Source: Thermoanaerobaculia bacterium
GTDB taxonomy: Bacteria; Acidobacteriota; Thermoanaerobaculia; Multivoradales; JAHEKO01
Assembly (NCBI GenBank): GCA_945787525.1
Contig: CALZJC010000008.1
Coordinates: 1-39,279 of the forward strand
Reading direction: 5' to 3'
Length of the DNA stretch: 39,279 nucleotides
The stretch's first letter is position 1; the number at the start of each line of letters is the position of its first letter. Made by a program: the position numbers and the translations under genes. Positions 20,047 to 38,589 of the stretch are shown here, in pieces. Under the pieces are notes generated by a model, which made no database searches, was not told the origin of the DNA, and saw nothing but the letters and a program-made list of their open reading frames with translations.

Positions 20047-20880
20047 ATGTCCGTCCTCAACGCCGTCCTGAGAGCCGCCGTCGACGGCCTGCTCTCTCCC
20101 TTTCGCGGCCTGTCGCCGTGGGTGGGTCTGGCCGTGGTGTCGATCCTGACGGCGGTGCCGATGCTGCTGGTCTTCAGGGCTACCTCCAACCAGACAGCGC
20201 TGGCGGCGGTCAAGAAGCAGATCCACGCCGGGCTTTTCGAGATCCGGCTGTTCAATGACGATCTGCGGGCCATCATGAGGGCGCAGCTCCATATCCTGCG
20301 CCAGAACCTCAGCTACCTCCGCCTCTCGCTGCCACCGATGCTCTGGATCGTGCCGCCGCTGGTGCTGCTGTTCGCCCAACTGCAGTTCCACTACGGCTAT
20401 CGCGGCCTGGAAGTGGGCCAGCCCGCTCTGCTGGAGGCCACTATCCGTGAGAGCGCGCTGGATGGCGCAACCGGCAAGCCGACGCTGCGGCTCGACGTCC
20501 CCGACGGCCTGCGGGTGGAAACGCCGCCGCTGTGGATCGCCTCCGAGAGCCGCTTCAGCTGGCGTATCGCCGCCGAGCGGCAGGGTGACTACACCGTCAA
20601 GCTGGGCTTCGCCGGCCAGGAGGTCGAAAAGTCGGTGCACGCCGGCGAGCGGGTGGTGCTGCGCTCGCCCGAGCGGTTGGCCCCCACTTTCGTCAATCAG
20701 CTGCTCTATCCAGCCGAGCCGCCGCTGCCGGGCGACGGACCGTTCAGCGCGGTGAGTATCGGCTACCCGGAACGCGCCCTGTCTCTCTTTGGCCTCGAGA
20801 CGCCGTGGTGGGTGGTCTATCTCGGCCTGCTGTTCCTCGTCATCCTGGCGTTGCGCAACGCCTTCGGCGTGACGATCTAG
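20047..20880 (+). CDS. Three-TM protein resembling Oxa1/EMC3-group insertase topology
   Basis: I do not recognise a named family. The 277-residue protein has TM1 at about 24-44, a cytosolic amphipathic and charged helical stretch at 48-93 (LAAVKKQIHAGLFEIRLF), TM2 at 94-113 (PPMLWIVPPLVLLFAQL), a beta-rich extracytoplasmic insert of about 120 residues, and TM3 at about 254-270. TM1, a coiled cytosolic hairpin, then a Pro-rich TM2 is the layout of the archaeal DUF106/EMC3/TMCO1 branch of the Oxa1 superfamily. The beta insert between TM2 and TM3 is not usual for it. It is last in the alkaline-phosphatase operon. Function by resemblance only. Confidence 0.8.
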   Translation: MSVLNAVLRAAVDGLLSPFRGLSPWVGLAVVSILTAVPMLLVFRATSNQTALAAVKKQIHAGLFEIRLFNDDLRAIMRAQLHILRQNLSYLRLSLPPMLWIVPPLVLLFAQLQFHYGYRGLEVGQPALLEATIRESALDGATGKPTLRLDVPDGLRVETPPLWIASESRFSWRIAAERQGDYTVKLGFAGQEVEKSVHAGERVVLRSPERLAPTFVNQLLYPAEPPLPGDGPFSAVSIGYPERALSLFGLETPWWVVYLGLLFLVILALRNAFGVTI

Positions 20881-20900
20881 CCTGGACTTCTCACCGATCC

Positions 20901-20918
20901 CCTACGAAACGCCGTAGG
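20901..20918 (+). terminator. Hairpin after the phosphatase operon
   Basis: CCTACG and CGTAGG form a 6-bp stem around a 6-base loop, 20 bases after the operon's last stop. No T-run follows, so it is at best a weak or Rho-assisted terminator. Confidence 0.3.
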
Positions 20919-20946
20919 TGCCTGAATCTGCTGCGTTACGGTCGGG

Positions 20947-21428
20947 TCACAGCGCCGCCGCCAGCAGCCGCCAGGCGGCCTCGACCTGAGCCCTCAGATC
21001 GGCCTCGGGCTCGAGCAGCCGGCGGCGGGCCAGGCCCTCGCACAGCGATGCGGCGAGCTCGGCCAGGGCGGCGGCCGGCGCTCCCAGCGCCTCGCCGAGC
21101 GCCTGCCGTGCCGACTCCCGGCGCCTATCCAACGCTGCAGCGACCCCGGGAGAACGCAGCGCGGCGGTCTCCAGCTCGAGCTGCAGCCGCGCCGGTGGAA
21201 GCCCGGCGGCGGCCGCCTCGAGCAGCCGGTGCAGGCGCTGCGAGGCATCCGCAGCGTCCTCGGTCGCCGCCAGCGCCGCCTCGACGAGGCTCGGCGTCGC
21301 CGCGGCCACGGCGGCAACCAGCTCCTCTTTGCCGGGCCCTCCAGTCCGTTGCGCTGCAGGCAGCGGGCGGCGGCCTGGACGATGCCCCGCTCGCGGGCGA
21401 GCAGGCGTTCTGGAGAGAGCTTTGGCAT
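20947..21428 (-). pseudogene. TetR-family regulator broken by deletion of the HTH
   Basis: The start at 21428 reads MPKLSPERLLARERGIVQAA then RCLQRNGLEG, a normal TetR helix 1 and entry to helix 2. At about 21336 the frame changes: the rest of a TetR protein (GPGKEELVAAVAAATPSLVE to the stop at 20947) continues in another frame. In intact relatives about 26 residues carrying the turn and recognition helix (the T-S-M-x-x-I-A ... G-V-S-x-G-x-x-Y-x-x-F region) lie between these two parts; here they are missing and the frame is shifted. The C-terminal ligand/dimer domain is otherwise uninterrupted. Either a genuine small deletion or an assembly error of about 80 bases. Confidence 0.75.
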
Positions 21429-32324: not shown

Positions 32325-32343
32325 CCGGTGAGAAGGTCAGGCT

Positions 32344-34983
<2,640 letters not shown>

Positions 34984-36125: not shown

Positions 36126-36377
36126 TCAGGGCGCTTCGAAGCCGAATGCCGCGAAGTTCCTGGCGGTCCACTCCTGCCACTTTCGCGGCAGCTCCTCCAG
36201 GGGGAAGATCGCTTCCACCGGGCAGGCGTCGACGCACAGCCCGCAATCGATGCACTCCTCGGGGTGGATGAAGAGCGTCTCCCAGCTCTCCTTGTCATAG
36301 ATGCAGTCCACCGGACAGATCTCGACGCAGGCCTTGTCCTTTACTCCGACGCAGGGCTCGGCGATGATGTGGGTCAT
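36126..36377 (-). CDS. fdxA: Seven-iron ferredoxin
   Basis: The 83-residue protein shows the Cys layout of Azotobacter FdI-type ferredoxins: Cys9, Cys17 and Cys52 would bind the 3Fe-4S cluster and Cys21, Cys42, Cys45 and Cys48 the 4Fe-4S cluster; Cys25 matches the free Cys next to the cluster. The start THIIAEPCVGVKDKACVEIC is typical of FdxA. It is a cytosolic low-potential electron carrier. It stands alone, with TATAAT about 40 bases upstream and GGGAAGAG before the ATG. Confidence 0.96.
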   Translation of the reverse strand: MTHIIAEPCVGVKDKACVEICPVDCIYDKESWETLFIHPEECIDCGLCVDACPVEAIFPLEELPRKWQEWTARNFAAFGFEAP

Positions 36378-36460: not shown

Positions 36461-36644
36461 TCAGCCCACCTTTCTCGCCGAGGCCCTACTGCGCAGCCAA
36501 GTGCACCCGAATCTGCGCCACTTGACTCGCTTGGGCATCCTCGACGTACCTCGAGTACGCCTGCGGTGCCCGCGGTCGTCAAGCAGCGCATCTCCAGGCG
36601 CCCAAGGCCGCTCGCTACGGGCCTCGGTGAGAAAGGCGTGCTGA
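36461..36644. repeat. Long imperfect palindrome (about 185 bp)
   Basis: The two halves are reverse complements with about 62 of 89 bases matching, centred on CGTACCTCGAGTACG at 36545-36559. The outer ends are best conserved: 36461-36486 pairs with 36619-36644 at 23 of 26 positions (left end TCAGC, CTTTCTC, CCGAGGCCC). One extra base in the right arm aligns the whole. It fills the gap between fdxA and the ArsA pair and runs over the likely GTG start of the latter. It resembles a palindromic dispersed repeat or a structured RNA more than a terminator. Confidence 0.7.
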
Positions 36645-37519
36645 CTCAGCTAGCAGGCCGGCGGCTGCTGGTCGTCACCGGCAAAGGCGGCGTCGGCAAG
36701 AGCGCCGTCGCGGCCACGCTGGGCACTCTTCTGGCCCGCGCCGGGCGGCGGGCCCTCGTGCTCGAGGTGGATCCACGCGAGAACGTGCACCAGATGCTCG
36801 ACGTGCCGCCGTCGGGCGGCGACATCGTCGAGGCCGCCGAGCGCCTCTTTCTGCAGAACCTGCAGCCACGTCAGGTGGTCGACCAGCTGGTGCGGGATCG
36901 GGTGCGGATCGAGCTCATCGCGCGCCGCATCCTCGCCAGCCCGCTCTACCACAACTTTGTCGAGGGGGCTCCCGTGTTGGAAGAGGCGGCGATCCTCGGC
37001 CATTGCCTGCTGCTCGCCGAGGGTCGCAGCCGCGGAGCGCCGCCGCTGGACGTCGTGGTGCTCGACGCCCCCGCCACCGGCCACGGAGTGTCTTTGCTGT
37101 CGGCGCCGTCACTGGTCTCGGCGGCGATCGCCGCCGGCCCGCTAGCGGAGCTCACCGGCGAGGTTGCAGAGCTGATCGGCGACACCGAGCGGTCGGCGGT
37201 GGTGGTGGTGACCCAGGCCGAGGAGATGCCGGTGACCGAGGCCCTCGAGCTGCGGACCGAGTTGGCGGCACGTCTGGATCGCTCGCCCGAGCTGCTGGTG
37301 GTCAACCAGCTGCTGCCCGGCGGACCGCCCCGGCCGCGGGCCGGCGAGAGCGCCGCGGCGAAGCTCTGGCGCCGGCGGCGGAGGCTGCAGGACCACGAGG
37401 TCGGCCGTCTTGCCGCGGCCTGGCCCGGGCGGCGGTGGGAGCTGCCCTTGCTGCCCTTCGACCGCGGCCCGGAGTTGATCGAGGCCCTGGCGGCGGCCGC
37501 GGCGGGGCAGGACGCATGA
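36638..37519 (+). CDS. ArsA/Get3-like ATPase, first of a pair
   Basis: The frame opens with GTG at 36566, but I prefer GTG at 36638 (VLTQLAGRRLLVVTGKGG), since the upstream codons lie within the palindromic element; this gives 293 residues. The deviant Walker A is GKGGVGKS with signature Lys16 and Lys21 present, followed by LVLEVDPRENV (switch-I-like Asp) and VVVLDAPATGHG (switch II). Relatives are the anion-transporting ATPase/Get3 family. The stop overlaps the next start by four bases (ATGA). The paired arrangement recalls mycobacterial Rv3679-Rv3680 (BagA/BagB), a heterodimeric Get3-like complex. Role here unknown. Confidence 0.88.
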   Translation: MLTQLAGRRLLVVTGKGGVGKSAVAATLGTLLARAGRRALVLEVDPRENVHQMLDVPPSGGDIVEAAERLFLQNLQPRQVVDQLVRDRVRIELIARRILASPLYHNFVEGAPVLEEAAILGHCLLLAEGRSRGAPPLDVVVLDAPATGHGVSLLSAPSLVSAAIAAGPLAELTGEVAELIGDTERSAVVVVTQAEEMPVTEALELRTELAARLDRSPELLVVNQLLPGGPPRPRAGESAAAKLWRRRRRLQDHEVGRLAAAWPGRRWELPLLPFDRGPELIEALAAAAAGQDA

Positions 37520-38589
37520 CTACCGGCTTCGAGTGGCCGCGCCTCCTGGTCGTGGTAGGCGCCGGCGGGGTAGGCAAGACCACCCTGGCGGCGGCCCTCG
37601 GCCTGCTGTCGGCGCGCGGCGGGACCGATACCCTGGTCATGACCTTCGATCCATCGCATCGCCTCAAGGATGCGCTTGGAGTCGGCGCAGAGGCGGGGGT
37701 CGAGACCAGGGTCGAGCTCGGCGATGCCGTGACCGGGCGGCTCGATGCCAGCCTGCTGGACGCCCGGCGCACGTTTGATGGTCTGGTGGATCGCTACGCT
37801 CCGGATCCGGCTGCCCGCGACCGCATCCTGGGCAACCGCTTCTACCGTCATCTGGCGGGCAGCCTGGCGGGAATCCTCGAGTACATGGCGGTCGAGCGGC
37901 TGCTCGAGGTGTGGCGGGCCGGCGAACACGAGCGCATCATCCTGGACACGCCACCGACCCGGCAGGCGCTCGACTTTCTCGGCGCGCCGCGGCGCATGGT
38001 CAGCTTTCTCGAGAGCGGCGCCATCAAGGTGAGCACGCGTCGCTGGTTCGTCGACGATGGCCGCCTGCGCGGGGCTCGGGCGCTCGGTCCGCTGGGGCGC
38101 CGGTTCGAGAGTTTTCTCGACGACGTGGTCGGCCTCGAGCTGCTGCGCGACATGGGGGAGTTCTTCCAGGCGTTCGGACCGCTCTACGAAGGCTTCAGGC
38201 AGCGGGCCCGGCAGGTCGAACAGCTGCTGGTGTCTCGAGACACGGTCTTCTTTCTGGTCTCGGGCGCCGGCGAGGAGAATGTGCCCGACACCCTCTTCTT
38301 TGCCCGCAAGCTGGAGGAGACCGGACACCACCTCGGTCCCGTCCTGGTCAACCGGCTGCACCCCCGGGCTGGCCTGGCGGCCGACCGCGAGGCGGCCGTG
38401 CGCGGCGACGGCGCCGCTCTGCTGGCCTGGCTGGCCGAGCGCGATGCTCGCGGTCTCGAGCACCTGCGCACGCTGCTCGGCCCCGAACGGCCGCTCTACG
38501 ACCTGCCGCTTCTGCCCGAGGCGCCCAGTGAGATCCAGTCCCTGGCGCGCCTTGCCGAGCTGCTGGCCGAGCGTCTGCGAGGAGTCTAG
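37516..38589 (+). CDS. ArsA/Get3-like ATPase, second of a pair, lacking the signature Lys
   Basis: The ATG at 37516 overlaps the previous stop and gives 357 residues; a much longer open frame upstream is just the shadow of the first gene. The P-loop reads GAGGVGKTT: the P-loop Lys21 is kept but the intermonomer signature Lys is Ala16. Switch I is TFDPSHRLKDALG, as in Get3/ArsA, and switch II is IILDTPPTRQALDFL. A helical insertion (about 110-240) could form the client-binding part. It probably forms a heterodimer with the upstream subunit, with asymmetric ATPase sites. Confidence 0.9.
   Translation: MTTGFEWPRLLVVVGAGGVGKTTLAAALGLLSARGGTDTLVMTFDPSHRLKDALGVGAEAGVETRVELGDAVTGRLDASLLDARRTFDGLVDRYAPDPAARDRILGNRFYRHLAGSLAGILEYMAVERLLEVWRAGEHERIILDTPPTRQALDFLGAPRRMVSFLESGAIKVSTRRWFVDDGRLRGARALGPLGRRFESFLDDVVGLELLRDMGEFFQAFGPLYEGFRQRARQVEQLLVSRDTVFFLVSGAGEENVPDTLFFARKLEETGHHLGPVLVNRLHPRAGLAADREAAVRGDGAALLAWLAERDARGLEHLRTLLGPERPLYDLPLLPEAPSEIQSLARLAELLAERLRGV

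Follow-up and report, generated by a model that had tools for sequence, protein, structure and literature searches.

Short bacterial repeats generally have a narrow host range, and as a rule their interiors are ignored. Structured MITEs such as bcr1, ERIC and RUP are short elements with inverted repeats, and their transcripts would fold. To our knowledge these MITEs, and those of the QMITE2 type, are confined to narrow host groups. QMITE2 (PMC10969869) is likewise a short inverted-repeat element with a folding transcript. In 2009, 24 'predicted short RNA elements' of G. metallireducens were reported and left unexplained (PMC2700814); the main text and legends of that paper are limited to Geobacter and Desulfotalea and contain no structure model, mobility or other phyla. 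MRSC-65-2 (Narunsky 2024, PMC11109978) is, in the main account of it, a single long covarying stem found in dozens of copies per genome in diverse phyla, and was judged selfish, with the question of an RNA or a DNA form left open.

Here we describe a hairpin family that differs from bcr1, ERIC, RUP and QMITE2 in that its core spans several phyla, and of which a diverged copy lies in the window, the whole 39,279-nucleotide stretch of DNA analysed. We consider it likely that this copy is an old MITE-like element with IS1380 ends, inserted in trans at CTAG and built around a conserved, strand-specific core. The unity of the family across phyla, its loop architecture, its IS1380 ends and its landing at stop codons appear to be new relative to the main accounts in PMC2700814 and PMC11109978, and partial overlap with the element lists of those two papers is possible.

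The palindrome in the window

The palindrome occupies positions 36461-36644 (184 bp), with the element on the minus strand. A preliminary description had given it as an imperfect palindrome of about 185 bp, matching at 23/26 in the outer arms and at roughly 70% overall, and these figures hold: the 5' outer arm in the element's orientation (36619-36644, an IS1380-like terminal repeat) and the 3' outer arm (36461-36486) are 26 nt each and 23/26 (88%) complementary, and the self-match of the whole palindrome extends over 186 nt at 68.8%. The center that it had singled out, CGTAC-CTCGA-GTACG, lies at 36545-36559 and on the minus strand forms the apical hairpin CGTAC-TCGAG-GTACG, the most strongly conserved stem in the family. 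Its judgement that the palindrome is far beyond chance is borne out by folding against shuffles, with the minus strand at -127.8 kcal/mol (z -11.19), the plus strand at -99.5 kcal/mol (z -6.76) and 0/200 shuffles matching the fold energy on either strand. It was also right that several mismatches would be G-U pairs on one strand, and the fold energies identify the minus strand as the RNA-like one.

The conserved folding core of 118 nt is found at 36494-36611 on the minus strand (R1, 110.7 bits; R2, 96.9 bits, E 1.9e-22), where R1 is a covariance model built on the inner 118 nt of the hairpin. The window copy is a diverged member of the family, at 71-83% to its own best matches by BLAST in the same genome. 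Its CTAG ends are absent, the element ending in TCAGC...GCTGA where the family has CTAGCC...GGCTAG. Its apex, GGCGTAC...GTACGTC, is related to the palindrome GRCGTAGCGCTGCTACGCC of Geobacter but does not reproduce it exactly.

Copies and distribution of the family

BLAST of the palindrome segment returned ~30 clear copies in the window's own genome (550 contigs totalling 4.43 Mb, with a completeness of 89%); full-length copies measure ~183 bp, and in every alignment to the query the two arms keep the same orientation. Model R1 finds 62 core matches in this genome (E below 1e-9), and the end sequence CTAGCCTG[AC][AC]CTTCTCACC, with at most two mismatches, occurs 235 times compared with 0-1 for the reversed control. 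Relics, either truncated or internally deleted, account for most of the excess of ends over cores. The median nearest-copy identity is 95%, and the family has therefore spread fairly recently in this genome.

The family is present in 32 of the 59 genomes of the same order and, with model R2, in 43/247 Acidobacteriota genomes, the relatives carrying dozens of copies per genome. The assignment to this phylum follows from a match between L043, a sequence of the same family, and L109, a contig named as Thermoanaerobaculia. Exact matches to the core pattern were found in Deltaproteobacteria (Geobacter, Myxococcales, Syntrophobacterales), Treponema vincentii (Spirochaetes), Omnitrophota and Thermincola, and the copy counts with R2 are 48 for T. 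vincentii, 74 for Geobacter sp. AOG1, and 50 and 112 for one MAG each of Spirochaetaceae and Myxococcales, respectively. Contamination of MAGs could blur single records, but the genomes of Treponema and Geobacter come from named isolates. Within the genus Treponema, five of seven genomes hold 34-68 copies and two hold none (R2), which shows the model to be selective. The exact core pattern had no match in viral contigs, blastn of plasmids and phages gave no copy, and the Rfam 15 covariance models gave no relevant match (MIR2933, E 0.028, falls far below its cut-off). A literature search with the core sequence returned only apparent chance matches to primers.

In Thermincola (L129, 2806-3408), a copy lies downstream of four clustered tRNA genes, at a distance of ~60 bp. 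The T. vincentii copies at L217-L236 and other palindromes, among them GTGTACATCCGTGTACAC and CACGGACATCC.TGTCCGTTCTGA units, together form mosaics that resemble composite repeat clusters. An integron-like array was considered and set aside, the T. vincentii copies being spread round the whole chromosome.

At the apex of the R2 match, the published central palindrome GRCGTAGCGCTGCTACGCC of the Geobacter predicted short RNAs (Fig. S1 of PMC2700814) is found in all 12 of the 12 Geobacteraceae loci tested, and on this ground these elements are very probably of the same family as the hairpin. MRSC-65-2 is an element of the same kind but, going by its main description (PMC11109978), of a different family: its hallmark UYCCGG repeat occurs once in 105 hairpin-family sequences, below the chance expectation of 7.3.

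A conserved fold on one strand

The core of ~118 nt is a long, strand-specific hairpin of nearly constant length, mostly 110-121 nt. In an alignment of 46 core sequences from many genomes, 92.7% of cells pair and compensatory double changes occur at 35/36 pairs; 341 cells are double-changed vs 96 after shuffling, the covariation score is 0.612 vs 0.194, and the signal is lost when the partner is slid by one column. Unpaired or non-standard features keep their positions, AGAUGCNAGGC facing AACGCAGCAGAU and CCGCAGGCG facing CGUCGAGGA and, farther out in close relatives, CGUAGCGA facing CGCAGUAG. Entire stems vary in sequence between Treponema copies within one genome, and these motifs are unchanged.

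The fold is better on this strand in 15/16 full copies, by a mean difference of 16 kcal/mol, and core pairs show G-U rather than A-C at 168 vs 24, a G-U figure that is inflated by a consensus built with G-U allowed; the comparison of strand energies is independent of that. Between phyla the core is better conserved than the ends. Across phyla it is the interior that is conserved, nearly every pair showing changes that preserve the structure, and the ends vary by host group, so that what binds the fold becomes a testable question.

The preliminary description had weighed a dispersed palindromic repeat against a structured leader or sRNA, and had named the lack of any second copy and of covariation as the result that would speak against it. 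Both copies and covariation were found. The former alternative is correct, given the many copies in the same genome and in relatives and the strong compensatory change, and the occurrence of copies in all orientations to genes lends the latter no support.

Compared with L240-L243, the orthologous site in L239 (Treponema, G303) lacks the core and has a short, perfectly paired hairpin. Judging by its sequence, this hairpin is a likely product of template switching in which one arm was copied onto the other, and template switching in the hairpin may explain part of the matched arm change without selection.

Ends and target site

The 62 copies in the window's own genome have the features of MITEs: they are short (~183 bp), with terminal inverted repeats and without a conserved ORF or neighboring gene. 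Copies of the lineage typically start CTAG|CC and finish GG|CTAG, with an end of the form CTAG|CCTGCCCTTCTCACC. In their ends they resemble IS1380, whose terminal repeat CCCGCATTTCTCAC is preceded by CTAG at both ends; they differ from it in having no transposase, and IS1380 in turn lacks the folding core. Annotated IS1380s on plasmids of Pseudomonas putida and Bradyrhizobium have inverted ends CCCGCATTT[CT]TCACA with CTAG before both. IS1380 transposases were identified in relatives (PF13701 and NF033539), with ends of the same kind as those of the hairpin, CTAGCCCGCATTTCTCACC (L148) and CTAGCCTGCATTATTCATGA, and deltaproteobacterial hairpins start with CTAGCCCGGATTATTCATGA (L121) and TTAGCCCGGATTATTCATGA (L116). 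Most element ends are 3-4 positions in 14 off the IS1380 repeat, a closeness reached by 15 of 20,000 random 14-mers. At L146, 1265-3125 (G001), an IS1380 has inserted into a hairpin copy at the CTAG end of the latter, and this IS1380 carries CTAG at both its own ends. No IS1380 transposase was found in the window's own genome, an assembly that is 89% complete, and a literature search returned no paper on IS1380 with CTAG.

CTAG occurs 12 times in the window vs 114 expected from base composition, a tenfold depletion, with gene stops at eight of these sites. Among intact CTAG ends of the copies in this genome, 19 of 50 coincide exactly with the stop codon of the neighboring gene. In genome G012, a gene terminates in the CTAG of an element, and the orthologs of two congeners, free of the element, stop at the same codon with TGA. 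The gene calls behind these stop-codon counts, and behind the orientation and Treponema-context counts given below, come from simple scoring scripts made for this analysis. The presence of CTAG at both ends is compatible with a target-site duplication, but CTAG is itself a palindrome, and no clean empty site was found. A search for empty sites in Treponema showed gain and loss with rearranged flanks. The copies of Treponema and Geobacter are without IS1380-type ends, and IS1380 therefore fails to explain their spread.

Taken together, we propose that the element would be non-autonomous, with terminal inverted repeats of IS1380 type, and that IS1380-family transposases acting in trans would insert it at CTAG, leaving CTAG on both sides. 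With CTAG presumably rare in these genomes and mostly located at TAG stop codons, insertions would fall on gene ends and the protein would usually be spared. Such a rule would offer a simple reason for a harmless high-copy element, its target word being both rare and concentrated at stop codons. The conserved core between the ends forms a long hairpin from just one of the strands, with conserved internal loops at fixed places, and the folded single strand, whether DNA or RNA, may be bound by some protein relevant to the spread or tolerance of the element. The core probably predates the IS1380 ends, because the Treponema and Geobacter copies have other ends.

What the core may do

Two readings of the core's role are compatible with IS1380 mobility, because both concern only that role. 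The strand asymmetry, the G-U pairs and the conserved internal loops would all be expected if the core acts as RNA, either as a ncRNA or as an element of mRNA 3' ends, with its loops binding a conserved protein and the transposon ends carrying it, and the Geobacter copies are indeed annotated as predicted short RNAs. In tandem-gene contexts, however, the folding strand is antisense in 15 cases and sense in 6 (further contexts comprise 20 convergent and 4 divergent), there is no rule of orientation to genes in Treponema, and no conserved sequence flanks the copies beyond their ends, so that no shared promoter is seen. When a conserved neighboring protein was sought, most of what emerged was the element itself in translation. 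We regard a role as RNA as plausible, somewhat short of probable. The lack of an orientation rule speaks against the usual role of a 3' UTR, and it puts the RNA and single-stranded DNA readings on about the same footing.

The second of these readings is that the fold matters as single-stranded DNA, recognized during spread by a nuclease, a recombinase or a replication protein. IS1380-type transposition would be expected to require only double-stranded ends, the T. vincentii positions show by eye no strand bias relative to replication, and copy number does not vary with the HUH family Y1_Tnp; nevertheless, a strand-specific fold without a rule of gene orientation is consistent with such recognition, as is the one site with an internally deleted perfect hairpin, which is expected if a DNA hairpin forms. 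This, too, we hold to be a serious candidate without quite believing it.

More speculative, and in our view doubtful, is a broader proposal that sees in the core a structured nucleic acid of ancient origin that moves horizontally, a bacterial counterpart of SINE-like parasites. It would be kept because the folded strand binds a conserved partner, and it would borrow the transposon ends of its host, IS1380 here and others in Treponema and Geobacter.

Were the element an ordinary MITE with a functionless core, template-switch repair of the hairpin would have to be the sole source of the matched arm changes. The many internally deleted and truncated relics, and the likely template-switch product at the orthologous Treponema site, agree with this, but such repair would erase internal loops, and the loops and their spacing persist across phyla; moreover, G-U lies far above A-C, and it is the core, not the ends, that is better conserved between phyla, which together make this account improbable. 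Transposition of a REP-like element through a Y1 (RAYT-type) transposase, suggested by dispersed imperfect palindromes at gene ends, is very improbable given zero Y1_Tnp matches in the window's own genome despite 62 copies, a copy number that does not follow Y1_Tnp across 59 genomes, and ends that match IS1380 instead.

Neighboring genes and relics in the window

The window copy sits between divergent genes, a 4Fe-4S ferredoxin gene on the minus strand (36126-36377; Fer4, E 2.5e-12) and a pair of ArsA ATPase genes on the plus strand, the second of which spans 37516-38589 (E 1.2e-20). The likely start of the first ArsA gene, which the preliminary description had placed in overlap with the palindrome, is indeed inside the element's edge: the probable start codon is GTG at 36638-36640 on the plus strand (ArsA_ATPase, E 7.2e-23 from here), and a possible Shine-Dalgarno sequence, GGTGAG, lies at 36626-36631 on the same strand, also inside the edge. 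The insertion of the copy, or its decay, may have set the start signal of this gene.

A truncated second copy is found at 20877-20948 on the minus strand, its CTAG containing the TAG stop of the preceding gene. At 32327-32347, also on the minus strand, lies a solo end relic, CTAG AGCCTGACCTTCTCACC, whose CTAG provides the ClpB gene with its stop; the stop is followed by the solo element end and then by the likely ATG of the next gene, and the solo end is a scar serving as intergenic spacer.
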